Positions 27,591 to 55,351 of a stretch of DNA of 64,000 bases are shown here, piece after piece. Both the position numbers and the translations under genes were made by a program. Numbering within the stretch: position 1 is the stretch's first letter; every line of letters begins with the position of its first letter. This stretch comes from Peptococcaceae bacterium CEB3 (GTDB lineage: Bacteria; Bacillota; Desulfitobacteriia; Desulfitobacteriales; Desulfitobacteriaceae): NCBI GenBank assembly GCA_001029295.1, contig LDXJ01000051.1, positions 1 to 64,000 on the forward strand, read 5' to 3'. The notes under the pieces are model-generated. The model was given only the letters and a program-made list of their open reading frames with translations. It was not told the origin of the DNA and made no database searches.

Positions 27591-27704
27591 TTCCTCACTA
27601 AATCAGAGCAACCGTACCAATCTGATGACCTTGCTCGGACCAGAAGATACCTCATCGACTTAAGCCATGAGGTGAGAAGCGGATGGCTTCTTCTTACCAT
27701 CTGT

Positions 27705-27733
27705 ATCTTAGCCTAAAATCCGGCCTCTGTCAA
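27705..27733 (-). promoter_or_regulatory. Promoter of infC-rpmI-rplT
   Basis: Minus strand TTGACA (27728-27733), a 17-nt spacer and TAAGAT (27705-27710). Confidence 0.75.
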
Positions 27734-27751
27734 TCTTTTTCCGGTCAGGCG

Positions 27752-37733: not shown

Positions 37734-38438
37734 CTATGCCGGCTCGTTTTCTGCCGCAAACGGATCCTCGGCTGCCATTTCCTCTGGTTCCTTTAGGAGG
37801 TCCGCGAACATTTCATCCTCGGCGTCCTGCGCGGAGCCGTATCGTTCATTCCGCACACGGATTACCTCGTTCAGGAACTCGTCGAAAGCACGCTCATTGC
37901 TCGGAAACTGCACATTTCTTACGATGTTGTCCGTGTTATAGAGCCTAGCCTTGAACAATTCCTGGACGCGATACGGTGGCAGGAACATTTTCCGAAGCAG
38001 TTTTTCTCCGGCATAATCATACACATCGTAGGAAAAACCACCACCTCCGGTCTTCCGGCAGTCGACAAGTATGTTGGTTAGGTTCCGGATCCGACTGTCA
38101 AGGTTACGAATGCTGGGAGAGGTCATGAAAAGACTGCTATGCAATTTGCGGAGGTAGAAGAAAAACTGGGTCATGTAGATGTTGGACCCCTTGCTGAACA
38201 TCCGGGAGTCAAGGTTTACATGCGCCTCGTCCATGACTTGGATGCTGTTGGGACTCCTGGCCACGTTATAGTAGTCCTTATAATGTGTCAGTGGCCTGGA
38301 ACCCCTTAATCCGTAATTGCTGTAGATGTCGACCAGCACTCCGGCCTTCTTGGCGCGGGCCGCGTAGTAATGTGCCAAAACACTGGCGCCAAAGGTTTTC
38401 CCGTCCCCCAGGTGGCCCTGGAACACCCACAAATACAT
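37734..38438 (-). CDS. Zot/pI-like P-loop ATPase (filamentous phage assembly)
   Basis: A 234-aa ATPase: Walker A GHLGDGKT (residues 8-15), Walker B IQVMDEAH (66-73), then LRKLHSSLFMTSPS and DSRIRNLTN (114-122). This is the pattern of Zot/pI proteins, in which an R/K-H segment is followed by a D-x-RIR sensor. In inoviruses this protein powers extrusion through the membrane. Unlike Ff pI it lacks a transmembrane helix and outer domain; the tail-anchored gene at 38802-39158 could supply these. FtsK/HerA-like packaging ATPases are the alternative family. Last large gene of the module, as gene I is in Ff. Confidence 0.8.
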   Translation of the reverse strand: MYLWVFQGHLGDGKTFGASVLAHYYAARAKKAGVLVDIYSNYGLRGSRPLTHYKDYYNVARSPNSIQVMDEAHVNLDSRMFSKGSNIYMTQFFFYLRKLHSSLFMTSPSIRNLDSRIRNLTNILVDCRKTGGGGFSYDVYDYAGEKLLRKMFLPPYRVQELFKARLYNTDNIVRNVQFPSNERAFDEFLNEVIRVRNERYGSAQDAEDEMFADLLKEPEEMAAEDPFAAENEPA

Positions 38439-38440: not shown

Positions 38441-38788
38441 TTACTTCCCGCCTTTCAAGGCATTGTTGACCATCCTCTTATCAATGAGGTTGCCGGTAAA
38501 GTAGCTGTTAATGACCTCAATAAACGTCCCCGGAGGAGTAAGGTTTTTAGACTGATACAAGATCGTGTTTATGATCGGGTCAAATGTCTTGTGTCCCCTG
38601 TTCGCCTGGATGTATTTAAGCAATGCAATTCCCTGCATCTGCAACGGATGCAGAGGCGTCCCGTGACCCTCCATAAAGCGGAGTGTCTCGACCAGCTCTC
38701 CTTTGGCAGACGCGAAAAGGTCCCCGCTCATGATGTCCTGGAGAGATCGCTTCTGGTACTCGGACCCGTTGCCGTTACTATCTGACAT
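38441..38788 (-). CDS. Hypothetical protein of the assembly operon
   Basis: A 115-aa soluble protein; its ATG at 38788 has GGGAGG upstream. Contains the helical stretch LVETLRFMEGHGTPLHPLQM. Not recognised. It is two bases from the Zot-like ATPase start, suggesting a partner of it. Confidence 0.7.
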   Translation of the reverse strand: MSDSNGNGSEYQKRSLQDIMSGDLFASAKGELVETLRFMEGHGTPLHPLQMQGIALLKYIQANRGHKTFDPIINTILYQSKNLTPPGTFIEVINSYFTGNLIDKRMVNNALKGGK

Positions 38789-38801: not shown

Positions 38802-39158
38802 TTAATGATGCAAGACCAGTATTGTTATGAGCAAGATGACCAGCGTGGCGTAAAGTGGTATGTTGAGCTGCTTTGCCACTCCATAGTTAAACATGGATTT
38901 AAGAGCGACATTCTTTTCGAGCTCAGTGATCCGTTCGCTTTCGGCAAGATAGTTCCCGGTGTAGCCGAAAATATAGGCTCTGCCGCCGCTTGGATAGTAT
39001 CTCACTTCTGCATCGGCTACCGGCAGCGTCAGGGATCCGGCACATACCGATTCTTCGCTGAGTTGCTCGACTGGGAGCACTCGTATCTCCGCAGGGGATA
39101 TGAGGATCACGTCGTCGGTCACTGTTTTTTTCTTGCCCAAAAGTTGTTTTAGCATCAT
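38802..39158 (-). CDS. Tail-anchored membrane protein of the assembly operon
   Basis: A 118-aa protein with a soluble N-terminal domain of about 95 residues and a single C-terminal membrane helix (IPLYATLVILLITILVLHH). Its ATG overlaps the stop of the small gene upstream. In inovirus terms it may be the missing membrane part of a split pI/pXI-like complex. That is inference. Confidence 0.7.
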   Translation of the reverse strand: MMLKQLLGKKKTVTDDVILISPAEIRVLPVEQLSEESVCAGSLTLPVADAEVRYYPSGGRAYIFGYTGNYLAESERITELEKNVALKSMFNYGVAKQLNIPLYATLVILLITILVLHH

Positions 39159-39367: not shown

Positions 39368-39631
39368 TTACCACCACTTGACCCCGGTCTTGAAAGCTAA
39401 GTACATGTCATAACTCTTGCGCACAATGAGCACCACGAGGAGTAGGAAAGCGCTGGCAACGATAGACCCGATGAGCATTTGCCAACCAGGACCCATGAGC
39501 ACAATAGGCCCCAAGAAATAGTCAAGGTTTAGTCCCCGGCCAGCTACCAAGGAAACCTGGCCGAGGTAATTGAGCGCGTTTTGCAAAAGAGAGATGATCG
39601 GACCGATGATACTGTCAACTATCGAGTGCAT
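39368..39631 (-). CDS. Small hydrophobic virion-like membrane protein
   Basis: An 87-aa protein with an amphipathic N-terminus (SIVDSIIGPIISLLQNALNY), one or two hydrophobic spans (WQMLIGSIVASAFLLLVVLIV) and a basic C-terminus (RKSYDMYLAFKTGVKWW). The start ATG at 39631 has GGAGGAGGAG upstream, within the end of the previous gene. Probably a coat or cap protein of the filamentous module. Not matched to a named family. Confidence 0.7.
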   Translation of the reverse strand: MHSIVDSIIGPIISLLQNALNYLGQVSLVAGRGLNLDYFLGPIVLMGPGWQMLIGSIVASAFLLLVVLIVRKSYDMYLAFKTGVKWW

Positions 39632-40087
39632 TTATTCTCCTCCTCCACCGGCGATCCTTATGACGGCGTATGCGGTGATAATCCAGACAAAGACCGCCAT
39701 GATATACGCTATTGTGTTAAATCCTGTCTGGCCAAGAAATCCTGTCACGGCAGAAAATCCCTGCTGATAGGCGCTAGGGAGAGCGTAATAAGACGTGCTC
39801 CCGCTAAATCCCATCAAATCAGCAAACGTAGTAACTATTCCCCCGACGATCGCCGTTACCACCCCGAAAAGTCCCAAAACCACTCGGATGATGAGCACTA
39901 TCACCTGGAAAATCTGCGTGATGAGATACCAGATCCCGCCCAACAATAAAATGATCGGCCCAAATAGGGCCGTCAGAAAGCTCTTCAGAGCATTAAACAG
40001 GCCCGTAAAAACATTACCGAACCAATTGGCAATACTTGAGAGAGAATTGAAAAGCACTTGGAATAGACTTTGGAAAAACTGATACAT
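39632..40087 (-). CDS. Multi-span membrane protein, pVI-like
   Basis: A 151-aa hydrophobic protein with a long amphipathic N-terminus, paired spans at about 42-85 (ALFGPIILLLGGIWYL; VIVLIIRVVLGLFGVV) and a last span near 125-145. It sits between the large secreted proteins and the Zot-like ATPase. Gene VI of Ff, the hydrophobic minor coat protein, occupies the same place. The analogy rests on position and hydrophobicity, not sequence. Confidence 0.7.
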   Translation of the reverse strand: MYQFFQSLFQVLFNSLSSIANWFGNVFTGLFNALKSFLTALFGPIILLLGGIWYLITQIFQVIVLIIRVVLGLFGVVTAIVGGIVTTFADLMGFSGSTSYYALPSAYQQGFSAVTGFLGQTGFNTIAYIMAVFVWIITAYAVIRIAGGGGE

Positions 40088-40091: not shown

Positions 40092-40778
40092 TCAACTCCC
40101 CGGCGTTAAAGGTGGTTGTGCAGTAAGCGGAGCTTGGGGAGACAGGGGACCCTGGGCAGAAACAGGCTGGTCCTGAGAGACCGGCTGATTCGGGGAAACC
40201 GGAGCATCCGGCGTAGTCGGAGGTGACATCTGTGTAGAGGTCTGTGGCAGGGGAGGTTGGGCAGTTACAGGAGGTTGGGACGCTGTTGGACCTTGCGGCG
40301 TCAGCGGCGTGTCTGGCGTCACGGAGCCGGGAGAGAGTGGAGATTGCGCGGCTACCGGCGGCTGCGCCGTGGTCGGTGCCTGGCCGGAAACGGGCGCGTC
40401 TGGCGTAAGAGGTGTGTCACCGACCGTCGGCGCGTCATGCGGCATGACGGAGGGCGCAGGAATTGTCGGGAGGACGCCCGGCGTCTGCACGAACGTCGGC
40501 ATCTGCGGGGGAGGCGTGGTGTACGTGTACGGCTGGTTATTCGGTTCCCCCGGAATAGTGGGGACCGTCGGGTCGAAACTCGGCATAGACGGCTCAGGAA
40601 AAGAGACAGAGGGGTTTGTTGGTGTCGTGAGGTAGCTGGACAATCCTCCCAGGGTGTTATTGATGTTGCCTAATGTTGTATTGGTCTGTCCTAGTTGGTT
40701 CGTGATGGTGTCCAAGGTATTGCCTATTCCGGAAAGATCCGATGCTAAGGTGCCCTGGTTGTTGATAATGGTGGTCAA
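40092..40778 (-). CDS. Pro-rich C-terminal domain following a UGA, copy 1
   Basis: Read from a TTG at 40778 this is 228 aa. A polar coiled-coil-like head (TIINNQGTLASDLSGIGNTL and NQLGQTNTTLGNINNTLGG) is followed by about 150 residues of P/T/Q/S-rich repeats (APVSxQ, PLxPQ). It has only a poor start site. It lies in the same frame as the gene at 40815-42107, separated by a single UGA and twelve sense codons (DVVNAINALGGQ). I interpret it as a readthrough extension. Copy 2 at 42131-42823 is highly similar. Confidence 0.75.
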   Translation of the reverse strand: MTTIINNQGTLASDLSGIGNTLDTITNQLGQTNTTLGNINNTLGGLSSYLTTPTNPSVSFPEPSMPSFDPTVPTIPGEPNNQPYTYTTPPPQMPTFVQTPGVLPTIPAPSVMPHDAPTVGDTPLTPDAPVSGQAPTTAQPPVAAQSPLSPGSVTPDTPLTPQGPTASQPPVTAQPPLPQTSTQMSPPTTPDAPVSPNQPVSQDQPVSAQGPLSPQAPLTAQPPLTPGS

Positions 40779-40814
40779 CTGACCACCTAACGCGTTTATC
40801 GCGTTTACGACGTC

Positions 40815-42107
40815 TCAGAGAGTATCATTGCAGGGTGGGGGCGGCGGAGGAGGTGGCGTAGAAACCGTCAGAGCCGCCGTGCCGCTTGTCCCGTCGTATG
40901 TTGCGGTTATCGTACTGCTCCCGGCAGTTACGCCGGTAGCCGTGGCCCCTGATATGGTGGCCACGCCCGTATCGGAACTCGTCCACGTAGCACTTGAATG
41001 GACGTCAGAAGTTGAGCCGTCAGAGTAGTGAGCAGTGGCGGTGAAAGCTTGTGTACCGCCTACATCTATTGTTGCGGTGTCAGGGGAGACAGACAGAGAT
41101 TCCAGAGTGGGTGCAGAAGCCGCAGTCACGGTGAGGGAAGCAGTTCCGGTCATTCCGCCGTATGCAGCCGTAATTGTACAGGTTCCAGCGGCCTCCCCGG
41201 TGGCGTCATTGGCGGAAAGGGTCGCCACGCTTGTGTCCGAACTGCTCCACGTAGCTGCCGAGGTGATGCTGCTTTGCGATCCGTCAGAATAATGGGCCAT
41301 TGCCGTATAGTAGACTGTGCCTCCTACTTGTATCGAGGTTGTCGACGGCGACACTGTTATCGACTGAAGAGTGGGCGCAGTGGCGGTCACTGTAATCGTT
41401 CCGCTGCCGCTAAATCCGCCATACGTGGCAGATATAGTACTTGTCCCCGCCGAAACCCCCGATACTACATTGCCTGACATGGTGGCGACGCTTGTATCGG
41501 AGCTCGTCCATGAGGCGCTGGAAGTCACATCGGAACTGGATCCGTCGCTGTAATGGGCGGTTGCCGTAAAAGCTTGCGTATGCCCCACCTGAACACTTGC
41601 TGAGGACGGGGAGACAGTCAGACTCTGGACGGTGGGCGTGCTGTTATTGACGTAATTGCTTGTATCTGGCGCTGGCCACGTTGTCTCATTACCGTCGGAG
41701 TTCGTTGCCTGGTCGTACCAGAGGTACCTGTAGCCGCTAATGGATCCGCTTGTAAGCTCCAATTGGGCATAGCTCGCACCCGACGGAGGGGTTATGGAGA
41801 CATTCGTGCCACTGGTCCCAGACATACTTATCGTGGAACTGCTAATAAATGTGTTGCTTGAGTCAAACCAATTTATCAATCCGGTATCTCCCGCTTGTAC
41901 CAGATAGGATATCTCCGCTCCCGTAAACGTCGTACTGGGGTTGCTTACCCCGGCCATCAGGTGCTGGTCGTCAACGGTCGTGCTTGCGCTGTTGGTCCAA
42001 ATGTAGGCCGGAGTACTACTATTGGTCACTGTGGCCAGAGCGGGAAAGGGTAAGGTCAAGTTGACGAAAAGAATGACCAATGCTATGATCCATATCTTCT
42101 TAACCAT
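40815..42107 (-). CDS. Secreted Big_2-domain protein ending at a candidate readthrough UGA
   Basis: 430 aa to the UGA. Signal peptide (KKIWIIALVILFVNLTLPFPALA); an N-terminal beta domain of about 130 residues homologous to the gene at 42848-43381 (shared WYDQATNSDGNETTWPAPD-like block); then three Big_2-type Ig repeats of about 85 residues, each with SVQVGHTQAFTATAHYSDGS and SWTSSDTSVATMS-like lines; then P8-CNDTL-UGA. The same frame continues 240 codons beyond UGA, giving a 671-codon product. ATG 42107 has GGAGGAG. A likely adhesin or minor coat spike. Confidence 0.85.
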   Translation of the reverse strand: MVKKIWIIALVILFVNLTLPFPALATVTNSSTPAYIWTNSASTTVDDQHLMAGVSNPSTTFTGAEISYLVQAGDTGLINWFDSSNTFISSSTISMSGTSGTNVSITPPSGASYAQLELTSGSISGYRYLWYDQATNSDGNETTWPAPDTSNYVNNSTPTVQSLTVSPSSASVQVGHTQAFTATAHYSDGSSSDVTSSASWTSSDTSVATMSGNVVSGVSAGTSTISATYGGFSGSGTITVTATAPTLQSITVSPSTTSIQVGGTVYYTAMAHYSDGSQSSITSAATWSSSDTSVATLSANDATGEAAGTCTITAAYGGMTGTASLTVTAASAPTLESLSVSPDTATIDVGGTQAFTATAHYSDGSTSDVHSSATWTSSDTGVATISGATATGVTAGSSTITATYDGTSGTAALTVSTPPPPPPPPCNDTL

Positions 42108-42130
42108 TTTTTCTCCTCCGAGACTTATTG

Positions 42131-42823
42131 TTACGGACCGAGTGGGGGTTGAGGTGTCAGGGGGGCTTGAGGAGATAAGGCGGACTGGGCAGAAACAGGC
42201 TGGTCCTGCGAGACCGGCTGACTCGGGGAAACCGGGGCATCTGGTGTAGTCGGAGGTGACATCTGCGTTGAGGTCTGCGGCAGGGGGGACTGGGCAGTTA
42301 CAGGAGATTGGGACGCCGTTGGACCCTGCGGGATTAGCGGCGCGTCCCGAGCCACGGATGAGGGGGACAGGGGAGACTGTGGGGCCACGGGTGTCTGCGC
42401 CGCCGTGGGGGCTTGGCCGGAGACCGGCGTGGCCGGAGTTAGAGGAGGCTGGACATAACCCGGAGCGTCATGGGGCATAACGGTAGGGGCAGGGATGGTT
42501 GGCAGAGCCCCCGGCGTCTGGATGTATGTCGGCATCTGCGGGGGAGGCGTGGTGTACGTGTACGGTTGATTGTTCGGTTCCCCCGGAATGCTAGGCACGG
42601 TCGGATCGAAGCTCGGCATAGACGGCTCAGGAAAAGAAACGGAGGGGTTTGTCGGTGTCGTGAGATAGCTGGAGAGGCCTCCCAAGGTGTTATTGATGCT
42701 GCCTAACGTGGTATTGGTCTGTCCCAGTTGGTTCGTGATGGTGTTGAGGGTATTGCCTATGCCAGACAGGTCCGATGCTAAGGTCCCTTGGTTGTTGATG
42801 ATGGTGGTCAACTGACCGCCCAA
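42131..42823 (-). CDS. Pro-rich C-terminal domain following a UGA, copy 2
   Basis: 230 aa from a TTG at 42823, highly similar to copy 1 (same TIINNQGTLASDLSGIGNTL head and P/Q/S-rich tail). It is in frame with the upstream gene across UGA at 42848-42850. No good independent ribosome site (GGGCGG very close to TTG). In the interval from UGA to that TTG the two copies differ only at three synonymous third positions. Confidence 0.75.
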   Translation of the reverse strand: MGGQLTTIINNQGTLASDLSGIGNTLNTITNQLGQTNTTLGSINNTLGGLSSYLTTPTNPSVSFPEPSMPSFDPTVPSIPGEPNNQPYTYTTPPPQMPTYIQTPGALPTIPAPTVMPHDAPGYVQPPLTPATPVSGQAPTAAQTPVAPQSPLSPSSVARDAPLIPQGPTASQSPVTAQSPLPQTSTQMSPPTTPDAPVSPSQPVSQDQPVSAQSALSPQAPLTPQPPLGP

Positions 42824-42847
42824 CGCGTTTATCGCGTTTACGACATC

Positions 42848-43381
42848 TCAGAGAGTGCAGGTGCCACCAGATCCGCTACCTCCGGAACTGCCCGTAGTGG
42901 ACAATTGCGAGTCGGATGGTGTCGGGAAATTGGTCACGTTATTTTGGACATTTGTGGCTTGGCTAATCCATGCATAATTACCCCCGCCGCTGGATGAAGC
43001 GCACAATTCTAAATCGACTCCATAAGCATTTGTGGGGGCGTAATCTGTAAGTGGATCTAGTGGTGCATATACATAGCTCCCGTAAGGTCCATATTGATTA
43101 CTGCTTAGTAACGTTCCTGATTGGCTGTAATAATTGACTTTGACGTAGCTGTTGCCTTGCAACGCTACGTGGAATTGAATTTGTGACAGTGCAACTGTGT
43201 TATTGGCTTCGTCACCCCAGACTATTTGCGTTGACGCACTCTGCGGCGGCCCCCCGTCTGTCGGCTGTATTATAGCTACATACACTGGGGCCGGTGCCGT
43301 GTAGGTCGTTGCGTACGCGGGAGACAGACTTAGGATAAAAAACAGGAGAGTCATAACCGGCAAAAGTATTCGCCGTTTCAT
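42848..43381 (-). CDS. Secreted protein ending at a candidate readthrough UGA
   Basis: 177 aa to the UGA. Signal peptide (KRRILLPVMTLLFFILSLSPAYA), a beta-rich domain with QATNVQNNVTNFPTP homologous to the N-terminal domain of the Big_2 protein, a Gly/Ser linker and CTL-UGA. Reading on gives a 416-codon protein. ATG 43381 has GAGG upstream and overlaps the previous gene's end closely. Cys at the end (C-T-L-UGA) is shared in kind with the other copy (CNDTL-UGA). Confidence 0.8.
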   Translation of the reverse strand: MKRRILLPVMTLLFFILSLSPAYATTYTAPAPVYVAIIQPTDGGPPQSASTQIVWGDEANNTVALSQIQFHVALQGNSYVKVNYYSQSGTLLSSNQYGPYGSYVYAPLDPLTDYAPTNAYGVDLELCASSSGGGNYAWISQATNVQNNVTNFPTPSDSQLSTTGSSGGSGSGGTCTL

Positions 43382-43389
43382 TCTTGTCC

Positions 43390-44403
43390 TCACCGCCTTA
43401 CCGACTGTTTCAGCATCTTTGCCATCTTCAGTGCCGCCACGACGGCAAACAGCAGCACAATGTATATCTGCACATCGGGCATATGCCCGAAGACGTTACT
43501 CTCTATGTTGGCTACAGTCAAAGGTTGAGCCGGGCTTTCCGTCTGAACGGAAATCTTGCTCGGAAGGCTTTGTTCCCCGTCGGTCGCCACAGTGGTCACC
43601 GCGATCTGGTAGGAGGTGTCTGCTGTCAAACCTTGGACTTCATAGGACGTCTGATAAGTGTTCCCTACCACCTGCCCATTCAGCAGCACGTTATAGCTCT
43701 GTGCGTTCGGCACCGGCTGCCAAGCTACCCAGACTGCGTCCGCGGACTTGTTGTAGGCCTGGAGGCCGGTTGGGGCCGGCACGGTGCTAATTGTGAAGGT
43801 CACCGGTTGGGATTGCGGGCCTTCGCGGTTATCATTTGTAGCAGAAACGGCCACGGTATGCTGTCCCGCGGCCAGGTTTTTGAGTGTATCCGTCTGCATC
43901 CCGGCGGTCGGCGTCACCGTTGCCGCTATCTTCCCGTCCAGATAGAGTGTATAGTCCGTAACGTTATAACTGCTCGGCAACGGCTGCCACAAGAGTTTGG
44001 CCGTTGTGCCAGTCGTGGACACCGTGGGAGCGTTCGGAGCAATCGGTACTGGGGACAGGGTAGTAAAATTCACCGCGGATGATTGCGGCGAGTCACCGCC
44101 GGTATTGTTGGCGATGACATACACCGAATAGTTTGTATGCGGCGTTAGTCCCGATAAAGCGGCGGAGGGCTTGTTCGATCCAGCGTACACTTGGCCGTTA
44201 AGATACAGAGTGTATTGCGACGCAGACGTAACCGCCGGCCAGGACACCTGGGCCGCGGTATCCGTTACGGCTGATATGACCACGCCAGTGGGTGATGCGG
44301 GAGGCGGAGGCGGCACTACGTTTACGTCTTGTACTGTAGCCAGGGCCGGCCTAGCTAGTGTCATCAAAAACAGTAGGGCAAGCGCGACTGAGAGCCTTTT
44401 CAT
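43390..44403 (-). CDS. Secreted three-FN3 protein with C-terminal anchor
   Basis: A 337-aa type I membrane protein. Signal peptide (KRLSVALALLFLMTLARPALA), three fibronectin type III repeats of about 90 residues (each with W-P/W-Q-P, Y-x-L/V-Y-L-N-G-x-V and LTPHTNYSVYV lines), and a C-terminal span plus basic tail (IYIVLLFAVVAALKMAKMLKQSVRR). The layout is like pIII-type adsorption proteins: secreted domains held by a C-terminal membrane helix. Function inferred from position. Confidence 0.8.
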   Translation of the reverse strand: MKRLSVALALLFLMTLARPALATVQDVNVVPPPPPASPTGVVISAVTDTAAQVSWPAVTSASQYTLYLNGQVYAGSNKPSAALSGLTPHTNYSVYVIANNTGGDSPQSSAVNFTTLSPVPIAPNAPTVSTTGTTAKLLWQPLPSSYNVTDYTLYLDGKIAATVTPTAGMQTDTLKNLAAGQHTVAVSATNDNREGPQSQPVTFTISTVPAPTGLQAYNKSADAVWVAWQPVPNAQSYNVLLNGQVVGNTYQTSYEVQGLTADTSYQIAVTTVATDGEQSLPSKISVQTESPAQPLTVANIESNVFGHMPDVQIYIVLLFAVVAALKMAKMLKQSVRR

Positions 44404-44467: not shown

Positions 44468-46231
44468 TCACCTCCATTTACGAAAGACTTTTGCGGCCGC
44501 TACCATCATTGGGCTTGCCTTTAGTGCCAAAGCCAAAGCCAGCAGACTTCCCATGGGCAACAACGTAAGACCTATGTTCCCCAAAAGTCCTCCGGTGAGC
44601 ATACTAGCACCCGGAGTTACCAGGGCAGAAACTGTGCTGCTGACAACGTTGCTAGGATACTGGCTGCCATTATGGACCTCTATCACCTGTAGCTGATAAT
44701 TTCCCGGTTTCTCTGTCAGGGTGTATTGGTTCCCGGAGACGTTTGCTACTTGGTTGCCGTTAACCATGACGAGATAACTGTCAGACCCGGAAATTCCCGC
44801 CCATGATAACTGGACATTGTGATTGTCTATACTGACCCTTAAGACAGGTGCTGGCACGGTGGTTGTAACGCTCAAAGGCTGGGAAGCTGGACTCATTCCG
44901 AACTGGTTCACGGCTTTGATAGTGATAGAGTTCATAGAGCCGGGTTGCAGACCCGTGACGGTGTAAGAGGGATTATAGACCACTGGCTGATTGACAGTTC
45001 CCAGCAGTGTTCCGTCTAGGTAGACTTCGTAGCTTTGAGCGTCGGATTCTTTGCTCCAGTAGATGGTGAAAGAGGTATTGGTAATGTTTCCTGCACTTAA
45101 ACCGCTTGGTGCCACAGGTGGTATACCCTGTGTCGTCACAGTGAGGGGAGAGGACAGCTGACTATGCCCCCATATGTTTGCGGCTGCCACTTGGAAACTG
45201 TATGTCGTGTTGGGAGTTAGCCCTGTTACCGTGTAGGTAGTCGCCGTCGTGATTCCGACCTCACTGCCGTTTTCATAGATAATGTAATTGCTTGTGTTCG
45301 GAATGGCCGGCCACGAAAGCTCAACTGAACTCGACGTGACGTTAGGGGCCTGTAGCCCAGTTGGGACAGTAGGGATACTCATGGGCCATTGGTAAGTTCC
45401 CCCGTAGACCCCGATGTTTGCCTGTGTTCCATCTGGATTTGTCCCGGTCCCAACATTTTGCCAAGCGGGAGACGAAATAAGGTACCTCTCTTGATCTGCA
45501 AAGGTAACTTTGAACAGGTTTACGTAGCCTGCAGTGGCATTATAAACTCCTTGAGGGACAAAGGCGCAATTTATGAAGGTATCTTTGGTGTAAAAATCAC
45601 GAGTATTTGCAGATAAAGGGGACAGAAAATCGCAGTTGTTGAATTGAAGCTCAGTAACTGCAGCTCCAAGGGAATTTCCGGCGCAAATAGGGTAAAGGGC
45701 AGGGGATACCGGTCCCGTGTCAAACACGCAGTTTGAAAACAGCAAGTTTATGCGTGCTCCGTCGTAAAAATACTCGTAAAAGCGGTTTCCGTTGTGTGGT
45801 CCGTTGCCGCTTAGAACAAATCTGATACCTACGAATTGATTCAATGAGTCCATTTGCATATTTCCGTTTGACTCGGTCGTTTGAAGATTAAAAGTTACCT
45901 GCCCGTCGTAGCCGGGAGCAGCCATGTAGGTAACACGTTTGTCCGTTGTGAGTATGGACTCCAAACCTCCCGGAATATCGAATGTACCGGCACTCTCAAT
46001 GTAGATAAGGGTGTTGTCCTGGGTGATGGAGGAAAACGCTTTGTCAATGGATTGATACGGATGAGCAGCGGAGCCGCTACCTGTGCTATCGCTGCCGGCG
46101 GCGCTCACATAAATAGTTTGGCTGTAAGTAGCCGCCTTGCCGGGAAGAGGAAAGACAAGTAGGCTCAGGCCGGCCACTAACAACGATATGAAGATCTTAA
46201 TGCGGCGTCCGCCACCAGCCCTGCTTTGCAT
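44468..46231 (-). CDS. Secreted beta-helix/FN3 protein with C-terminal anchor
   Basis: 587 aa. Signal peptide (IKIFISLLVAGLSLLVFPLPGKA); a parallel beta-helix-like domain at about 40-270 opening YVSAAGSDSTGSGSAAHPYQ, the usual start of right-handed beta-helix surface proteins, with NCVF/NCDF/NCAF rungs; three FN3 repeats at about 285-555; then a membrane span and basic end (KVFRKWR). Overlaps the glycosyltransferase gene by 35 nt. The best candidate for the receptor-binding tip protein. A carbohydrate-active domain is possible. Confidence 0.8.
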   Translation of the reverse strand: MQSRAGGGRRIKIFISLLVAGLSLLVFPLPGKAATYSQTIYVSAAGSDSTGSGSAAHPYQSIDKAFSSITQDNTLIYIESAGTFDIPGGLESILTTDKRVTYMAAPGYDGQVTFNLQTTESNGNMQMDSLNQFVGIRFVLSGNGPHNGNRFYEYFYDGARINLLFSNCVFDTGPVSPALYPICAGNSLGAAVTELQFNNCDFLSPLSANTRDFYTKDTFINCAFVPQGVYNATAGYVNLFKVTFADQERYLISSPAWQNVGTGTNPDGTQANIGVYGGTYQWPMSIPTVPTGLQAPNVTSSSVELSWPAIPNTSNYIIYENGSEVGITTATTYTVTGLTPNTTYSFQVAAANIWGHSQLSSPLTVTTQGIPPVAPSGLSAGNITNTSFTIYWSKESDAQSYEVYLDGTLLGTVNQPVVYNPSYTVTGLQPGSMNSITIKAVNQFGMSPASQPLSVTTTVPAPVLRVSIDNHNVQLSWAGISGSDSYLVMVNGNQVANVSGNQYTLTEKPGNYQLQVIEVHNGSQYPSNVVSSTVSALVTPGASMLTGGLLGNIGLTLLPMGSLLALALALKASPMMVAAAKVFRKWR

Positions 46232-47345
46232 ACGTCACCATCCCCCATGCCGTAACCGGAATCCAGCTAAAGAAGAAAATCCCCGACGTTAGAAGATAGC
46301 CAAATGCCGTTTTGCTTTTTATTTTTTCGGCTAATACTGGCAACAAATAAAACACCGGTGTCATCACAAACATGTTGAGAAAATAGATCGGGCCGGTCGA
46401 AATCAGGGAGTAAATAAACGAGACAATAAGAATGACCTGCATCGGCACCCACATGACCGCGTCGAACGCACTTAACGCCGCCCGATAGTTTCCTTTGAAC
46501 CAGTTCCTAAGCGCATATACGAAGAGCGCCGGAACGTATTTGAGCGTCACTTGCGTTTGCCCGCGGATCCAGCGCAGCCTTTGTCTCATCGAATCTTTCA
46601 GATTGTCTGGTTTCTGATCGTACGCGACGGCACCGGCGGCCAAGGCTACTCTTTCCCCCTGCAGGAGCAGCTGGCAGGTATACTCTACATCGTCTACGAG
46701 CGATGTGACATGCCAGCCTATCTTCCTGATTATCTGCGTGCTGATGCAGACGCCGGTCCCGGCCAGCCATACGGACATTCCCAACTGCTGCCGGGTCATC
46801 ATCATACGATACATGTACCAGTACATGTATGCGTTGTTCATGCTCACCCAGGAATCACTGGCGTTCTGCGTTTCTCCATATGCCTGGATCACCTTGTCCC
46901 CCCGGCCCAGATGATAGTCCAAAACCCCGAAGAAATTCCGGTCAATGTGATTGTCTGCATCCAGCACTACTACTGCATCGTACCGGCTTAAATCTATCTG
47001 CTGAAACGCCCATTCCAGGGCGAATTGCTTCCCGCGTTGCAAAACGTTTTTTCTCTCTAAGACTTCGGCTCCGGCGCGCCGAGCTAGTTCCACGGTCCTG
47101 TCCGTGCAGTTATCGGCCACCACAAAAACGCTGAATTGGCCATGGGGATAATCGGCCCCTAGAATCGATCCCACGGACGAGACTATGACTCTTTGCTCGT
47201 TGTGAGCAGGAACAAATACTGCGAAGGTGCTCTTTCCTGGCCCCCTCGGAGTTCCCACTTCCGGCCGCTTGATATGCAGACTGAAAAGCAGAAATGTAAG
47301 GTGGTAGAGGTAATAGGCTAGAATAATTGTCAAGACGATTATCAC
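46197..47345 (-). CDS. Membrane-bound family 2 glycosyltransferase
   Basis: About 382 aa. An N-terminal membrane span is followed by a GT2 catalytic domain with FVPAHNEQRVI, VVADNCTDRT, VVVLDADNHID (DxD-type), LAGTGVCIS, DDVEYTCQL and the processive-type QRLRWIRGQ (QxxRW), then three C-terminal spans. The start is probably a GTG at 47345 behind GGGGG; the frame upstream overlaps a terminator and coat genes. May glycosylate virion or surface proteins, or the host wall. Its place between coat and spike genes is unusual. Confidence 0.85.
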   Translation of the reverse strand: MIIVLTIILAYYLYHLTFLLFSLHIKRPEVGTPRGPGKSTFAVFVPAHNEQRVIVSSVGSILGADYPHGQFSVFVVADNCTDRTVELARRAGAEVLERKNVLQRGKQFALEWAFQQIDLSRYDAVVVLDADNHIDRNFFGVLDYHLGRGDKVIQAYGETQNASDSWVSMNNAYMYWYMYRMMMTRQQLGMSVWLAGTGVCISTQIIRKIGWHVTSLVDDVEYTCQLLLQGERVALAAGAVAYDQKPDNLKDSMRQRLRWIRGQTQVTLKYVPALFVYALRNWFKGNYRAALSAFDAVMWVPMQVILIVSFIYSLISTGPIYFLNMFVMTPVFYLLPVLAEKIKSKTAFGYLLTSGIFFFSWIPVTAWGMVTYAKQGWWRTPH

Positions 47346-47449: not shown

Positions 47450-47602
47450 TTAGCGGCGCCGGCCACCAAAGGCGGTCTTGGCTGCTCCTATGACCATGGG
47501 GGCGGCCATAATGCCGAGACCAATCGCAAGAATCGGCCAAATCGCGGTGAAAACTTGGCCCAGGTAAAGAAGGACATCCGACGCAGAAATACCTAACGAC
47601 AT
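47450..47602 (-). CDS. pVIII-like major coat protein candidate A (50 aa)
   Basis: A 50-residue protein with a strong AAGGAGG site. Short N-terminus with one acid (MSLGISASDVLLYLG), one hydrophobic span (IWPILAIGLGIMAAPMVIG) and a basic C-terminus (AAKTAFGGRRR). Length, single span and basic DNA-facing end match filamentous phage major coat proteins. It has no signal peptide, as in Pf3. Nearly identical to the next gene. Confidence 0.75.
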   Translation of the reverse strand: MSLGISASDVLLYLGQVFTAIWPILAIGLGIMAAPMVIGAAKTAFGGRRR

Positions 47603-47644
47603 GGGGGGCTACCTCCTTTCCAGAAAGAGTGGGACGAGAGGGGT

Positions 47645-47794
47645 TTAGCCGCGTCTGCCAAAAGCAGACTTGGCAGCACCAATAACCATCGGTGCGGCCA
47701 TGATGCCCAGGCCAATTGCAAGAATCGGCCAAATGGCGGTAAAGACCTGGCCCAGATAGTTGAGCACATCCGGAGCGGAAATGCCTAGACTCAC
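47645..47794 (-). CDS. pVIII-like major coat protein candidate B (49 aa)
   Basis: A 49-residue paralog of candidate A: GTG start at 47794 with GGAGGG upstream. Shares SLGISAPDVLNYLGQVFTA and the span IWPILAIGLGIMAAPMVIGA, ending AAKSAFGRRG. Differences between the copies are mostly conservative, and DNA third positions have drifted, so both are under selection. Either may be the main or a variant subunit. Confidence 0.75.
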   Translation of the reverse strand: MSLGISAPDVLNYLGQVFTAIWPILAIGLGIMAAPMVIGAAKSAFGRRG

Positions 47795-47810
47795 TTTGCT
47801 CCCTCCTCTC

Positions 47811-47969
47811 TCAATCGTCTTTGATTTTACGGAAAGCTGCTATTATGCCACCTAACACGAGACCGGCTAGCATTATGGCGAATGCCGGAGCTATGATAGG
47901 CCACAAACTTGTCATTGTAGAACTGAAAGCTTGGTAAAACAGGTTGATATTGTAATTGAGTGTCAACAC
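47811..47969 (-). CDS. Small membrane protein (52 aa) of the coat cluster
   Basis: GTG start at 47969 with AGGTGATG upstream; 52 aa. Polar N-terminus with NYNINLFYQAF, one span (WPIIAPAFAIMLAGLVLGGII) and a basic/acidic end (AAFRKIKDD). Same topology as the coat candidates but diverged; shares the W-P-I motif at the span's start. Confidence 0.7.
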   Translation of the reverse strand: MLTLNYNINLFYQAFSSTMTSLWPIIAPAFAIMLAGLVLGGIIAAFRKIKDD

Positions 47970-47983
47970 TTACATCACCTACA

Positions 47984-48139
47984 TCACCTATTCTGGTAGG
48001 CTTTTAAAATGTGTATAATGCCTCCGAACACGAACAAGGCCAAGAGCGCTCCGATAAATGGCCACAGAAGCGGAGTGAGGCTGCCAAATACATTGGCAAA
48101 CTGTTGGTATACGGAGGTCATATCAACGGTAAAACTCAT
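47984..48139 (-). CDS. Small membrane protein (51 aa) of the coat cluster
   Basis: 51 aa from ATG 48139 with GGGG upstream. N-terminal SFTVDMTSVYQQFANVFG, then WPFIGALLALFVFGGIIHIL and the basic end KAYQNR. Again W-P-F/I precedes the hydrophobic span, so it looks like a diverged member of the same coat-like family. Confidence 0.7.
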   Translation of the reverse strand: MSFTVDMTSVYQQFANVFGSLTPLLWPFIGALLALFVFGGIIHILKAYQNR

Positions 48140-48143
48140 CTCG

Positions 48144-48269
48144 TCATCCCCTACCAAATTTAAGAATTGCCGTGAAGACGGCTAGACCCAAGGAAATGAG
48201 CCCGAGAATGTCTATCAGAAAAGGATTCGACAGGAACCAGAACACGCAGGCGTTGAAATTGTAGTCCAT
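48144..48269 (-). CDS. Small membrane protein (41 aa) of the coat cluster
   Basis: 41 aa, MDYNFNACVFWFLSNPFLID then a second hydrophobic stretch (LGLISLGLAVFTAI) and the basic end LKFGRG. The start is ATG 48269, overlapping the end of the gene upstream; its stop lies just before the next gene's start. Confidence 0.65.
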   Translation of the reverse strand: MDYNFNACVFWFLSNPFLIDILGLISLGLAVFTAILKFGRG

Positions 48270-48270
48270 G

Positions 48271-48381
48271 TCATCGCCACCAGGTTATCAATTTGCCTAT
48301 CAGGTAGCTCGCAATGAACGGAGCCAAGATCACAAAAGCATAGACGGCAAGGAGTGAATGACTGTCCAAGACGGTCCACAT
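48271..48381 (-). CDS. Small membrane protein (36 aa) of the coat cluster
   Basis: 36 aa: MWTVLDSHSLLAVYAFVILA, a continuing hydrophobic segment and a basic end (GKLITWWR). Its ATG overlaps the stop of the upstream gene (TGATG), so it is translationally coupled. Size like pVII/pIX. Confidence 0.65.
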   Translation of the reverse strand: MWTVLDSHSLLAVYAFVILAPFIASYLIGKLITWWR

Positions 48382-48536
48382 CAGATATAACCCTCCCGAT
48401 CGGCAATGTCATAAAGGACCTTGACACCGACTAGGAGCGCGATCACCAGCAGGATACCGGCAATGATCATGTCGCCGTAACTCAGACTCTGTATGACTTC
48501 AAATACGCCATGAGGCGTTTGCACCTGGTAATTCAT
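48381..48536 (-). CDS. Small membrane protein (51 aa), first gene of the coat operon
   Basis: 51 aa from ATG 48536 with AGGTGA upstream. Polar N-terminus (NYQVQTPHGVFEVIQSLS), one span (MIIAGILLVIALLVGVKVL) and an acidic C-terminus (YDIADREGYI). The acidic end differs from the basic-tailed coat candidates and suggests another role, such as a cap protein. Confidence 0.65.
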   Translation of the reverse strand: MNYQVQTPHGVFEVIQSLSYGDMIIAGILLVIALLVGVKVLYDIADREGYI

Positions 48537-51567: not shown

Positions 51568-51764
51568 AGTCCCTGACAAGGCCTCATGCCGAAGAAATCT
51601 TCTAGCCGGCCCCTAACCTCGTCGATTGATACCTCGTATTCCTGAGCTAGGCACTTCTCGCAGACCGGATTTTTATAGCCTAAAGCTTTACTGCAACGGA
51701 TATCCCATGATGTCAGTTCTTGGCCGCAGGAACAATACTGGCCTGTCTGCCTAATGCCTTTCAA
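51564..51764 (-). CDS. Small zinc-ribbon protein
   Basis: A 66-aa protein from a TTG at 51764 behind GGAGG. CSCG and CEKC form a four-Cys zinc ribbon, followed by an acidic helix (YEVSIDEVRGRLEDFFG). Overlaps the next gene in ATGA. Unknown function. Confidence 0.6.
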   Translation of the reverse strand: MKGIRQTGQYCSCGQELTSWDIRCSKALGYKNPVCEKCLAQEYEVSIDEVRGRLEDFFGMRPCQGL

Positions 51765-52060
51765 AGTAATGCACCTCCGCTCCTCAGAGTCTCATCTTCT
51801 CCATCTTCCGAGTCTTTTTGTGGAGAAACCCATATTGCTTCCGCATCCATCGTCCACACTCCCTCCGCGCTGGCCAGGAAGGCGTAGAGTGCTTGTTCTG
51901 CCATAACCTGAGCCGCAGCCGGTGGAACCATGTTTCCGATCTGCTCACGCCAGAAGGCGTCCGAATTGCCCGCGAGCTGGAGAGGCTTGCCCTGCACTGT
52001 AAGCGGAAGTCTCTGAATGACGGCGAGCTCAAATGTCGTCAGCGGAAGAAGAAAAGTTAT
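51761..52060 (-). pseudogene. C-terminal remnant of a C5-cytosine DNA methyltransferase
   Basis: The frame encodes LTTFELAVIQRLPLTVQG then AGNSDAFWREQIGNMVPPAA. This is the end of C5-cytosine methyltransferases: motif IX region and motif X IGNxVPP. The catalytic PC and ENV motifs are absent and the frame upstream becomes a Gly/Tyr/Cys repeat. Only about 95 meaningful residues remain, so it is a truncated relic or a detached domain. Confidence 0.6.
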
Positions 52061-52182
52061 CTCAAAGCGGCAACCATCGAAACACCCATCATAACCACAG
52101 TACCCATCATAACCACACAACCCACAACAAAGAGAACCTCTCCAACAGCTTTGAGAATAAATTCCCGCCTGGAATCGTCCAC
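52057..52182 (-). CDS. Small membrane protein (41 aa)
   Basis: GTG at 52182 with a strong AAGGAGG site gives 41 residues: charged start (MDDSRREFILKAVG) and one hydrophobic span (EVLFVVGCVVMMG, TVVMMGVSMVAAL). The span is coded by an 18-bp tandem repeat (GTGGTTATGATGGGTACT). It overlaps the start of the methyltransferase remnant in another frame. Holin-like size, but function unknown. Confidence 0.5.
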   Translation of the reverse strand: MDDSRREFILKAVGEVLFVVGCVVMMGTVVMMGVSMVAALR

Positions 52183-52207: not shown

Positions 52208-52564
52208 CTAAACCATTTCTATCGGCGGCACAGGCAACTTTTCATTCTGCGGACGCCACAGATGGAGAACGTACGGACGCATATTCGCGTACTGAGCTTT
52301 AGGCGGGTGATACTGGACGGCGTATTCGTCCTCCCGGAAGAAGATGCCCTTGATGAGCGCCATTTCATGCCAGGTACAAGAACTTTTTTCGTTGCTTATC
52401 GAAACGTGATCCCAGCCCCCTCCCCAACTGAAGATTACTAGGGATGGTTTCTTCCTCGTGGGAAGATACACAAACGCCCATCCCCCGTCTTCTCCAGTGT
52501 CCTGTATCATGACTTCTCGACGTCGGTTGATTTCCTCCAAGCTTTTCACGCTCTCTTCACCCAC
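52208..52564 (-). CDS. Phage protein (DUF7694-like)
   Basis: A 118-aa protein with WGGGWDHVSISNEKSSCTWHEM and IKGIFFREDEYAVQYHPPKA, ending in HLWRPQNE. The W-D-H-V-S-x-S / H-P-P / H-L-W-R-P pattern recalls a small phage family seen in many Siphoviridae accessory regions. Function unknown. Confidence 0.7.
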   Translation of the reverse strand: MGEESVKSLEEINRRREVMIQDTGEDGGWAFVYLPTRKKPSLVIFSWGGGWDHVSISNEKSSCTWHEMALIKGIFFREDEYAVQYHPPKAQYANMRPYVLHLWRPQNEKLPVPPIEMV

Positions 52565-52818
52565 TCTTTCTGCGACACTATTTCATCCATAAAATACCAC
52601 CGGAACAAAATCTTGCGCCTGAACTTGAAAAGATTACGCTCGCTGTAACCCATTTCGCGCGCTATGGTCGGTATTGTTTTGCCCTCCGTGTAACGTTTCA
52701 GGGCAAATTCTCGGCAGTCTTCGTCCAGCTTGGAGAAGAATTCATCCACCATGGCCCTGCGGGTCGGGCTCAGAAATCTGTAAAGCTCCAGTTCACTCGG
52801 GTTTTTTAGATAAGCCAT
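52546..52818 (-). CDS. Small HTH regulator (sigma region 4-like)
   Basis: A 90-aa protein with an HTH: FALKRYTEGKTIPTIAREMGYSERNLFKFRRKIL. The form resembles phage late regulators such as ArpU/RinA or a sigma-70 region 4 module. It could act on the 19-bp promoter element of the virion operons; that is inference only. Confidence 0.65.
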   Translation of the reverse strand: MAYLKNPSELELYRFLSPTRRAMVDEFFSKLDEDCREFALKRYTEGKTIPTIAREMGYSERNLFKFRRKILFRWYFMDEIVSQKEWVKRA

Positions 52819-53221
52819 GGTTACCCGCCGCCTTCCTAGAATGACGAGAGAGAGTAAGACTCTTACTAAGACTGCTCGCCATCTTTATTTTGAACTCCTC
52901 ATATCGGCGCCTCAAACCAGTGGTCATCTCTGAGGATTTTAGCAAATAAAAAGTCATTTTTCCCACACTTACCATTCTCTCAGAAACTCCGTCCCTCAAA
53001 GCGTGCCGCATTAACAATTCACTTGGTACCGGCTCCATTTCCATGACCTTACTTGCTTGGATTAAAGTCATGTACATGCGGTTCTGCGTGTACTTCTGCG
53101 CCCATTTCATGAGTTTTACCGGCGAGTAACTGCTCGGATTGAAGTAGTAGCAGCGATAAGGTGACACGTGATAATTTGCTATCACGCGACACTTTTCTAC
53201 GGCGCGATCGACTGCGCTCAT
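52793..53221 (-). CDS. Hypothetical protein of the replication operon
   Basis: 142 aa. ATG 53221 overlaps the helicase-loader stop (ATGA). Aromatic N-terminus (YHVSPYRCYYFNPSS) and a basic C-terminus rich in S/R/K. Not recognised. Confidence 0.6.
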   Translation of the reverse strand: MSAVDRAVEKCRVIANYHVSPYRCYYFNPSSYSPVKLMKWAQKYTQNRMYMTLIQASKVMEMEPVPSELLMRHALRDGVSERMVSVGKMTFYLLKSSEMTTGLRRRYEEFKIKMASSLSKSLTLSRHSRKAAGNHGLSKKPE

Positions 53222-54096
53222 ACCCCTTTACCTCCTCCCGCACGCTGTTTCCGGTAGTCGTCCCCGGGAACAGCAACCAGATCACACATTTCGCGAATCC
53301 GACTGGAAATCCGCTTCCCGATGAGATCCTCCAGGATGTCCGGCTGGCAGTTCGTTGTAACGATAATCGGCAGATCATTGCGATACCGATAGTCGAACAC
53401 GGTGAAGAGTTTCTCAGTCGCCCAATCGTTCCCTCCTTCCCTGTGCCTCTCGGCTCCCAAATCGTCCAGGATCAGAATGTCACACTGTTTGACCACTCGA
53501 AGCAGATCTGCCTCACTGCTTGACGCTGTCACGCTGTACGTAGCCCGAATAGTGTCTAGCAACTCAGGCACGTTCTGGAATATGCACGCCTTCCCTTGTT
53601 TCGTCAGCTGGTTAAAGATTGCCGCAGCTATATGGCTCTTCCCTACGCCTACCGGTCCTACCAGCATGAACCCCTTAACAATGTCACGACCGGCTTTAGC
53701 ATCCGCCAGGAATCGGTGTGCCCTTCTTAAGCCCGCTGACGTACCTGACTTGGGTTCAAAATCCTCCAGGGTCTTCGAGTTGAATTTCTTACCAACTGTC
53801 GACCAGCCGAAATAACTAGCTACCTGACGCTGCTTCTCATACTCTGTCGCCCTCCTGACTATTTCGTTGTGCCTATCAACGGAACAGGTGCATCGGCCTT
53901 TGAGGTACCGGCTTCCCCCTAAAGCCGGCAGAAACTCGACCAAGATTGGTTTCACTAGCTTCCCACAGTCCTCACACACGTACTCAAGCTCAACTGGATA
54001 CCGTTCAGCTGGATACCGCGAAACCTGCTCGCTCCCATGCTGAGGGATCATAGCTTGCTGCATCGTCATACCGAGGACGTCGCTTATCTTGTGCAT
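53218..54096 (-). CDS. DnaC/DnaI-like helicase loader
   Basis: 292-aa AAA+ protein that loads the replicative helicase. An N-terminal zinc-type motif (CEDCGKL...GRCTC) is followed by GPVGVGKSH (Walker A) and ILILDDLGAE (Walker B), then sensor IIVTTNCQP and SRIREMC (arginine finger region). Overlaps the end of the DnaD-like gene by 92 nt, a common pairing in Gram-positive phages. It points to theta-type replication using the host helicase. Confidence 0.9.
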   Translation of the reverse strand: MHKISDVLGMTMQQAMIPQHGSEQVSRYPAERYPVELEYVCEDCGKLVKPILVEFLPALGGSRYLKGRCTCSVDRHNEIVRRATEYEKQRQVASYFGWSTVGKKFNSKTLEDFEPKSGTSAGLRRAHRFLADAKAGRDIVKGFMLVGPVGVGKSHIAAAIFNQLTKQGKACIFQNVPELLDTIRATYSVTASSSEADLLRVVKQCDILILDDLGAERHREGGNDWATEKLFTVFDYRYRNDLPIIVTTNCQPDILEDLIGKRISSRIREMCDLVAVPGDDYRKQRAGGGKGV

Positions 54097-55351
54097 CCCG
54101 TGTCACTCCCTTCCCATTCTCACGTGCTGTCCTGCTTTCTGGTGGGTCTCGTCGCTTACTTCGCAATCGCTCTTTTTGGGCAGACCATTCCTCGTCTCTG
54201 GCCGTAATATCTGCCAGAGACATCACTCCGTGTGCAAGCCAATCACTCATGATTCCCCGTAGGTAGCTCACTTTGCGCTGGTTTTGCTCTGCGCACCGTT
54301 TCAGTCCCTCGCACACAAGTGTCTCTGGCATAGGACTCCCCGCAACTCGAAACTGAGTGCACCAATCGAGCACATCGTCAATCTCCGAAGGCGACAGCAT
54401 CCTGCCGAAATTCATTTCCGCAAAGGCGATGATTTCTTGCGAATCGTGACCTTTTTGCGAGTACGCCTCCTGACTAATCCATTCCTTGGCCTGTGATTGG
54501 TCTCCTAGCCCCTCAGTGGCTTGTAAAACATCCAACTCGTGTGGTTCATGGTCTGATTCCATTTTCGTCTCTAAGGCCACTAGAAGCTCCGTTGCGGTGT
54601 CCATGCATTTCGGCTTCTCAGCAAGTAGCAGGGGACTAACCGTGGCCACGTCGGGTATGCTCAAGCTATCAGGATGTGCAGGTTCCTTTGTGAGCCGTTC
54701 CCCCGATAAGGGGTTGATACAGCACACAGAGACCTCTGTCTCCACCGATTCACTAGGATCATCGACCTGTACGCTCTCCTTTGTGGGCCGTTCCCCCGTC
54801 ATCTCGGGTACTTCGGTGTCCGCAAAGACAGCTAGTCCCTCATCGTCCCTCGCGCGCGCACGCGCGTTATCATCATCATCCGTTATACTCTCTACTCTAC
54901 TCTTATCTACTCTAGCCCCTGTACGTGCATCGCACATGAGTTGAACGTGTTCGCCTTGTGCGTCACACGTTCGTTGCACACCTTTTCCCCGTGCTTTCCT
55001 CATGCGTTCCGCATTTGCTTGTCGGTTATCAATAAGCTTACCTGCGTACTCCATCCAATCATGAACAAGCAACCCGTTTTCCGTGCGCTCAACGAACCCA
55101 TGTGAGCCACCGTAACCACACTCGGTCAAAGCTTTCAGGAAAAGGTCAGGGTCTCCCTCCCAACCTGCTCCCTCAGCAATGTCCTGCCATTCGTACCGGG
55201 TAAGGTCGCCATCTTGAGCGTATTTGAGGCACCACCACCAGAAGATATGCAGGTGGCCAATCATCGTCGGCACCGATACATTCAAGAGCCTTGCCGCACG
55301 TCTGACCTTTGGGTGTGTCGCGATTTCTTCGTTTGACTTAATCCACGCCAT
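54005..55351 (-). CDS. Replication protein with N-terminal winged helix (DnaD-like organiser)
   Basis: 448 aa. The N-terminus (MAWIKSNEEIATHPKVRRAA) is typical of phage replication organisers that precede DnaC. The middle is acidic and repetitive (two GERPTKE/GERLTKE motifs). A C-terminal DnaD-type helical domain (SPSEIDDVLDWCTQFRV; KVSYLRGIMSDW) follows. Likely binds the element's origin and hands over helicase with the next gene's product. The exact subfamily is uncertain. Confidence 0.75.
   Translation of the reverse strand: MAWIKSNEEIATHPKVRRAARLLNVSVPTMIGHLHIFWWWCLKYAQDGDLTRYEWQDIAEGAGWEGDPDLFLKALTECGYGGSHGFVERTENGLLVHDWMEYAGKLIDNRQANAERMRKARGKGVQRTCDAQGEHVQLMCDARTGARVDKSRVESITDDDDNARARARDDEGLAVFADTEVPEMTGERPTKESVQVDDPSESVETEVSVCCINPLSGERLTKEPAHPDSLSIPDVATVSPLLLAEKPKCMDTATELLVALETKMESDHEPHELDVLQATEGLGDQSQAKEWISQEAYSQKGHDSQEIIAFAEMNFGRMLSPSEIDDVLDWCTQFRVAGSPMPETLVCEGLKRCAEQNQRKVSYLRGIMSDWLAHGVMSLADITARDEEWSAQKERLRSKRRDPPESRTARENGKGVTRDAQDKRRPRYDDAASYDPSAWERAGFAVSS

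Follow-up and report, generated by a model that had tools for sequence, protein, structure and literature searches.

Among the described systems closest to the locus discussed in this article are the inoviruses, whose coat proteins are given as 30-90 aa long with one or two membrane spans and whose genomes are given as 5-20 kb (Roux et al., 2019; PMC6813254), the isolates being reported as ssDNA phages of 5.5-10.6 kb that replicate by rolling circle (PMC8491893). Another is MCACPph1 (OR602863), an active prophage of Moorella carbonis ACPs (DSM 116161) with a complete genome of 19,989 bp and 42 features. According to its authors, this 20-kb Moorella region is spontaneously released in particles that were passed through a 0.45-µm filter, treated with DNase and pelleted, and whose nuclease-resistant DNA was then sequenced by MiSeq, with Nextera XT named for the genome libraries; Caudovirales was inferred from one gene label, and the sections on the MCACPph1 particles report no microscopy (PMC11328732). 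Two labels in the deposited record, 'Hoc-like head decoration' and 'central tail fiber J', both rest on fibronectin-III (Fn3) repeats.

Here I consider a stretch of 64,000 nucleotides from Peptococcaceae bacterium CEB3 (the window, always meant at its full length), which lies on a contig of 107.5 kb in a Bacillota genome of 5.3 Mb; the host belongs to the same family as an apparent Desulfosporosinus metallidurans genome. The window holds seven consecutive small genes, c1-c7, that probably encode the coat of a temperate virus whose particles, most likely filaments, form in the host membrane and leave through it. Likely coat genes can thus be named for an unrecognised phage lineage without the tailed-phage signature, the one cultured case of which has been taken for Caudovirales and the pieces of which are scattered in virus databases; in the literature I found no publication that treats these elements as filamentous. 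Since a cultured member is available, direct experiments on morphology, strandedness and coat composition are possible.

The seven-gene cluster

The cluster (47450-48536) consists of seven minus-strand genes for proteins of 36-52 aa with one hydrophobic span each, and all seven frames lie where the original prediction, made from the letters alone, had placed them. In transcript order these are c1 (48381-48536, 51 aa), which is among the best conserved of the seven; c2 (48271-48381, 36 aa), whose start overlaps the c1 stop and which resembles pVII/pIX by size only; c3 (48144-48269, 41 aa); c4 (47984-48139, 51 aa), with 75-92% identity across most elements; c5 (47811-47969, 52 aa), with a GTG start; c6 (47645-47794, 49 aa), also with a GTG start and with a basic C-terminus; and c7 (47450-47602, 50 aa). 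Each hydrophobic segment reaches a Kyte-Doolittle value of 2.1-2.9 over 19 residues. The claimed close packing is borne out by gaps of -1, 1, 4, 14, 16 and 42 nt from c1 to c7, and ribosome sites, predicted to be good for most of the genes, are indeed present as a Shine-Dalgarno-like sequence before every start, weak at c3, strong at c6 (agaggaggga) and strongest at c7 (aaaggaggt). Two near-duplicates had also been noticed, and these are c6, ending in GRRG, and c7, ending in GGRRR, which are 88-89% identical; the shared W-P-I/F motif takes the form WPF in c4 and WPI in c5, c6 and c7. The expectation that such short frames escape standard gene callers was right only in part, because the MCACPph1 pipeline called six of six orthologues, one of them with a late start, and deposited them as hypothetical proteins.

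The chain is beyond chance: seven single-span ORFs in a row on one strand compare with 0-4 in 500 Markov shuffles of the stretch (4 occurring once), and elsewhere in the window, stretches overlapping the cluster aside, no such chain exceeds two. Searches with c1-c7 returned no Pfam family above the cut-off and only weak PHROG matches (E 0.14 or worse). In all 58 of the c2-c6/c7 proteins across elements the C-terminal side carries the more positive net charge, which argues for insertion with the C-terminus inside; c1 is without this bias, which is seen in 1 of 11 c1 proteins.

Conservation across related elements

Profile searches over the fetched elements and one further element gave 16 stretches (matches enter the profile and E-values are inflated), five of which stop short of the cluster's place: Bacillota MAG DBS2-4 (DBS, L024), G458b, G458c, L025 and L008. 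Homologous clusters, the finding on which the original prediction had staked itself, are present in all 11 elements that cover the place, in the form of the c1-c6 series. The carriers are the window's element (WIN), MCACPph1 (L011), the elements of Desulforamulus aeronauticus (DAE, L019-L021), D. metallidurans (DME, L042-L043) and a Syntrophomonadaceae MAG (SYN, L044-L045), the viral contig IMGVR_UViG_3300034520_000280 (META, L022-L023), and elements in the further genomes G257, G186, G522, G458 and G071; META and G522, being closely related, do not count as independent within the 11. The order of the six genes and their position are the same in the carriers, which come from several Bacillota lineages. 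In G458 the c3 frame is present without a usual start codon; and in G071, the most distant carrier, with an ATPase 29-31% identical to that of the window, c4, c5 and c6 are recognised by sequence, c1 only at E 0.008, and c2 and c3 by where they lie and by their hydropathy. MCACPph1 shares with the window's element one-to-one orthologues of c1-c6 in order, which are its CDS0019-0024 with CDS0024 as c6, the same regulator upstream, and a glycosyltransferase, Fn3, spike, ATPase and recombinase genes downstream, but it differs in its size (20 kb versus 31 kb), its single c6 copy and its early genes.

Elements bearing the ATPase are sparsely distributed over several Bacillota classes, with carriers numbering 2 among 61 relatives, 4 among the 82 genomes from the class and 6 among the 398 from the phylum, while three other classes yielded 3 of 113, 1 of 20 and 2 of 63 (each count includes the centre genome, and the genome sets overlap). 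Scans of viral contigs gave two records for c4, both already known, one for c6 and one for the glycosyltransferase; the human-gut 'Bacteriophage sp.' records L029 and L030 were discarded as relatives, the glycosyltransferase being their sole match. The IMG/VR records L005, L006 and L008 are 4-5 kb element fragments cut around the ATPase, so that the remainder of the virus is absent from them. G458 has three ATPase copies on contigs C3, C18 and C29 (L062-L065), two of them at contig ends.

Duplication and selection

The original prediction was of repeated duplication of one ancestral coat gene into major and minor subunits, and this stands for part of the cluster. Profile-profile comparison with hhalign gives probabilities of 98.9% for c4-c5, 94.3% for c4-c6 and 97.4% for c5-c6, supporting a single coat family made up of c4, c5 and c6/c7, whereas c1, c2 and c3 give less than 7% in every comparison among themselves or with c4-c6, so that for them the proposed duplication is not supported. 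Three of four control tails reach at most 5.3%; the fourth, the C-terminal tail of the fibronectin-III protein Fn43390, matches c4 at 85%, c6 at 80.5% and c5 at 0.6%, and I read it as a probable coat-like anchor of an adhesin. In filamentous phages, pIII is an adhesin with a comparable anchor.

Pairs of the c6/c7 type occur in 4 of the 11 elements, with within-element identities of 89% in WIN, DME and SYN and 28% in DAE. Between elements the copies are 48-77% identical (DAE, G458 and G071 are lower and were left aside), and the contrast with 89% within elements implies either several duplications or homogenised copies. The cluster genes are under purifying selection: between WIN and DME, each cluster gene has a dN of 0.06-0.35 and a dS that exceeds 1.4 or is saturated, and dN/dS of these pairs is about 0-0.13; c6/c7 pairs within WIN, D. 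metallidurans and the Syntrophomonadaceae MAG give 0.05-0.13, and the DAE pair gives 0.276. For the near-identical copies in the window, whose dN/dS had been proposed as a check, the value is 0.058.

The prophage and its late block

The borders of the prophage are given by a 22-bp perfect repeat, the attachment core, at 35299-35320 and again at contig positions 66447-66468 (outside the window), which leaves 31,148 bp between the cores; when the flanks are joined at the core, a single open transporter frame is restored, presumably that of an Nramp-type gene. At one end stands a XerC/D-type tyrosine recombinase (35796-36671, minus strand; Pfam Phage_integrase, E 2.7e-38) and at the other a large recombinase-like ORF (64562-66106, outside the window), which from its start I take to be a large serine recombinase. 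The early genes include, by Pfam, a DnaC/IstB-like helicase loader (53218-54096, minus) and a DnaD/DnaB_2-type replication protein (54005-55351, minus), together with an actin-like protein. A 119-aa ORF at 51761-52120 aligns with part of 473-621-aa proteins in relatives, which I assume to be DNA methyltransferases, and the window copy looks truncated.

The late block runs in the order regulator, accessory genes (in this element), c1-c7, glycosyltransferase, fibronectin-III proteins, two spike genes, small membrane proteins, Zot-like ATPase and recombinase, and the coordinates that follow are all on the minus strand. The regulator (52546-52818), with weak sigma-70 region-4 similarity, precedes the cluster in 10 of 11 elements, and the membrane glycosyltransferase of family 2 (46197-47342, proposed GTG start; Pfam Glyco_tranf_2_3, E 6.9e-27) follows it in 9 of 11. 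Next come two secreted fibronectin-III proteins, one an adhesin candidate with a C-terminal span (44468-46231) and the other Fn43390 (43390-44403), which has the C-terminal anchor similar to the c4/c6 coat family. Spike gene copy 1 (42131-43393) has a signal-peptide domain and a coiled-coil-like and Pro-rich stalk, and copy 2 (40092-42107) has a signal-peptide domain with Big_2 repeats and a stalk. They are followed by conserved proteins of 151 aa with three hydrophobic segments (39632-40087), of 87 aa with a single span (p39368, 39368-39631), of 118 aa with a soluble domain and a C-terminal membrane anchor (p38802, 38802-39158) and of 115 aa, soluble and adjoining the ATPase (p38441, 38441-38788), and finally by the Zot/pI-like assembly ATPase, which has no membrane span (37734-38438). 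A span or signal-like segment is present in 15 of the 19 late-block window ORFs scanned. The four exceptions are the ATPase, p38441, and the pair p42131 and p40092, each of which continues a signal-bearing frame in phase. Between p39368 and p38802, proteins of 124-164 aa with a coat-like match occur at L022:14356-14730, in the D. metallidurans element at 27402-27896 and in the L025 element at 831-1304.

In relatives the virion block also includes an SLT lytic transglycosylase (L011:12523-13161, L022:11481-12227 and L080-L081), in META (L022) with its domain fused to p39368; in WIN and the D. metallidurans element the profile searches revealed none. For the ATPase, the structural model (pLDDT 78.5) has the Neisseria Zot N-domain as its best solved structure in Foldseek (E 1.1e-8) and an Inoviridae Zot as its best viral match. 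The sequence scores are equivocal, with 16.9 bits against Pfam Zot (below the 20.3 cut-off) and PHROG matches headed by 'DnaA-like replication initiation protein' (E 1.8e-5), with 'protein I of M13' at E 0.0014, and in VIA-align the Z values for Zot (12.6), STIV B204 (11.7) and RecA (11.4) lie within about 1 Z. The protein p52793, which adjoins the ATPase in several elements, was considered as a gene V-like ssDNA-binding protein and rejected: its model is helical (pLDDT 84.9) and has no PDB match at E <1.0, which implies that it has no OB fold. An OB-fold ssDNA-binding protein was looked for and none was found, and Pfam scans of element proteins revealed DnaC/DnaD-type genes but no rolling-circle Rep.

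What kind of virus

The late-block order resembles that familiar from filamentous phages, with replication genes of the DnaC/DnaD type instead. Likeness to Inoviridae/Tubulavirales extends to c1-c7, which fit the coat range of 30-90 aa with one or two spans, to the exported adhesins and to the analogous gene arrangement, and may extend to the ATPase, whose best solved fold match is Zot but whose sequence scores for Zot/pI are weak. The differences are a prophage of 31,148 bp, larger than the small-genome range of 5-20 kb (MCACPph1 has 19,989 bp, and both are larger than the isolated inoviruses), DnaC/DnaD-type replication, a serine integrase, three related coat families and an ATPase without a span. 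I do not claim membership of Inoviridae, because the size fails, the ATPase scores are equivocal and a Rep was not seen.

It is from the observed genes, their order, conservation and selection, the c4-c7 homology and the prophage borders that I infer presence in the virion, the roles of the subunits, filament shape, extrusion and genome strandedness; the coat-gene reading draws in particular on the conserved place of the cluster in the virion module and on the release of MCACPph1 as nuclease-resistant particles. In this probable scheme, the coat family of c4, c5 and c6/c7 would lie in the membrane with its basic C-termini on the inner side, poised to bind DNA as pVIII is in filamentous phages, and, by analogy, would wait there until assembled round the genome by the ATPase during extrusion. 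The likeliest major subunit would be c6/c7, with c4 and c5 as related minor subunits; c1, c2 and c3 would be unrelated small proteins, probably end-caps or assembly factors, and c1 may have either a minor coat or an assembly role. The exported fibronectin-III and Pro-rich spike proteins would form the receptor-binding end, the Zot-like ATPase and its two conserved partners (p38441 and the membrane-anchored p38802) would power extrusion, and the lytic transglycosylase of relatives would open the wall locally.

An anatomy of this kind, with membrane proteins and spikes that are exported, would also suit a membrane-enveloped pleomorphic or spindle-shaped virus, in which the spans lie in a lipid envelope, the particle buds and the ATPase loads dsDNA, and this I regard as unlikely, though it is the strongest of the alternatives. 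The dsDNA-type replication genes speak for it, as do the closeness of the ATPase fold to packaging ATPases such as STIV B204 and the MiSeq sequencing of MCACPph1 particle DNA, probably via Nextera XT, since such libraries work best on dsDNA. However, Zot is the best solved fold match, the gene order resembles that of filamentous phages, and the coat proteins of spindle viruses have two spans while those here have one. Far less probable is a pilus, secretion or conjugation device on an integrative element with no virus coat at all: c1 has a sub-threshold T4SS_pilin match (E 0.037), and the transglycosylases in relatives' elements belong to a class also found in secretion systems, but no relaxase or VirB4/VirD4-type gene is present among the proteins scanned and the MCACPph1 region was recovered as filtered, nuclease-resistant DNA. 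That the element is a tailed phage, its small ORFs being holin- or exclusion-like accessory proteins and its fibronectin proteins tail parts, is scarcely credible, since the MCACPph1 labels, the Caudovirales inference of its authors and the PHROG tail-family matches of the Fn3 proteins are set against labels that are due to Fn3 repeats and stand alone when terminase, portal, HK97-type capsid and tail genes are asked for, against no terminase, portal, head-shell or tail-tube gene annotated among the 42 MCACPph1 features or present in the 20 Pfam-scanned stretches (one a META protein, the rest MCACPph1), against no tailed-phage head, tail or packaging gene in the PHROG/Pfam scans of element proteins, and against a conserved six-gene series that would be unexpected for holins.

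In-frame UGA in the spike genes

Both spike genes of the window are broken by a single in-frame TGA, at 42848-42850 in copy 1 and 40815-40817 in copy 2 (minus strand), and so are their homologues in DME (L042:4123-4125), MCACPph1 (L011:14664-14666) and G071 (L046:14972-14974, from an unbiased scan); six spike homologues, in META, DAE, SYN, G186, G257 and G522, are uninterrupted. Tandem RNA hairpins accompany the TGA in the window copies (42803-42850 and 40770-40817, both minus), the second with an AGUU loop and SECIS-like. Such an AGUU-loop hairpin, of at least 6 pairs, follows the UGA in five of five interrupted genes and in none of the six uninterrupted homologues, the loop starting 35, 35, 35, 27 and 35 nt past the UGA, against a background rate of 74 in 32,231 positions; the WIN copies and DME are related, which makes fewer than five independent cases. 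Over all elements, 18 TGAs are flanked on either side by 100 open codons; the five spike cases have the hairpin and the other 13 lack it. Between WIN and DME (three sequences) the stems show four compensated pairs, with one pair disrupted in window copy 1. Compared with shuffles, the folds of window copy 2 (z -2.78) and DME (z -4.24) are more stable, and those of window copy 1 (z -0.73) and MCACPph1 (z -0.87) are no more stable; an Rfam search at the hairpins of the window and MCACPph1 gave nothing convincing.

In the positive control, 16 host formate-dehydrogenase UGAs (the matches with a fetched locus, from a larger set of TGA-bearing matches) have GGUC-, AGUC- or GGUU-type loops 19 nt past the UGA, so that the spike loop type agrees and its spacing differs. 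The host genomes searched, including those of the window and D. metallidurans, all have a tRNA-Sec (8 of 8; the MCACPph1 and G071 hosts lie outside this set). A simple gene split was rejected: between window copy 1 and D. metallidurans the eight codons from the UGA to the first possible start show five synonymous and no amino-acid changes, the simulated chance of no amino-acid change over nine codons being 5e-5, which places the first codons past the UGA under constraint at the protein level, and the part after the UGA has neither a signal-like segment nor a clear Shine-Dalgarno sequence at its first possible starts. All five interrupted genes fit the bacterial SECIS criterion of a review of the prokaryotic selenoproteome, a 2026 paper whose main text does not contain the words 'phage' or 'virus' (PMC13188914); PMC1088965 served as a literature source alongside it and PMC6813254. 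The pattern suggests either a phage selenoprotein or programmed readthrough. Selenocysteine is weakened because the uninterrupted homologues have Ser in most cases and Cys in none at this position and no redox domain was seen in the spike protein; C-x-x-U is present in three of the five interrupted genes and missing from window copy 2 and MCACPph1. Generic readthrough may be the explanation instead.

The A1 protein of phage Qbeta is a UGA readthrough extension of the coat protein. The spike proteins are like it as structural proteins extended beyond a UGA, but differ in being exported, in belonging to a DNA phage and in the conserved downstream hairpin that fits the bacterial SECIS model. I know of no earlier viral structural selenoprotein, and the spike would be the first if the UGA reading is true. 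The most complete picture, of extruded filaments with a 20-31 kb, probably double-stranded genome, a repeatedly duplicating single-span coat family and a selenocysteine-encoding spike, is possible, though I hold it doubtful as a whole. The spike gene itself is tandemly duplicated at 40092-43393, its N-terminal domains having diverged and its stalks far less so.
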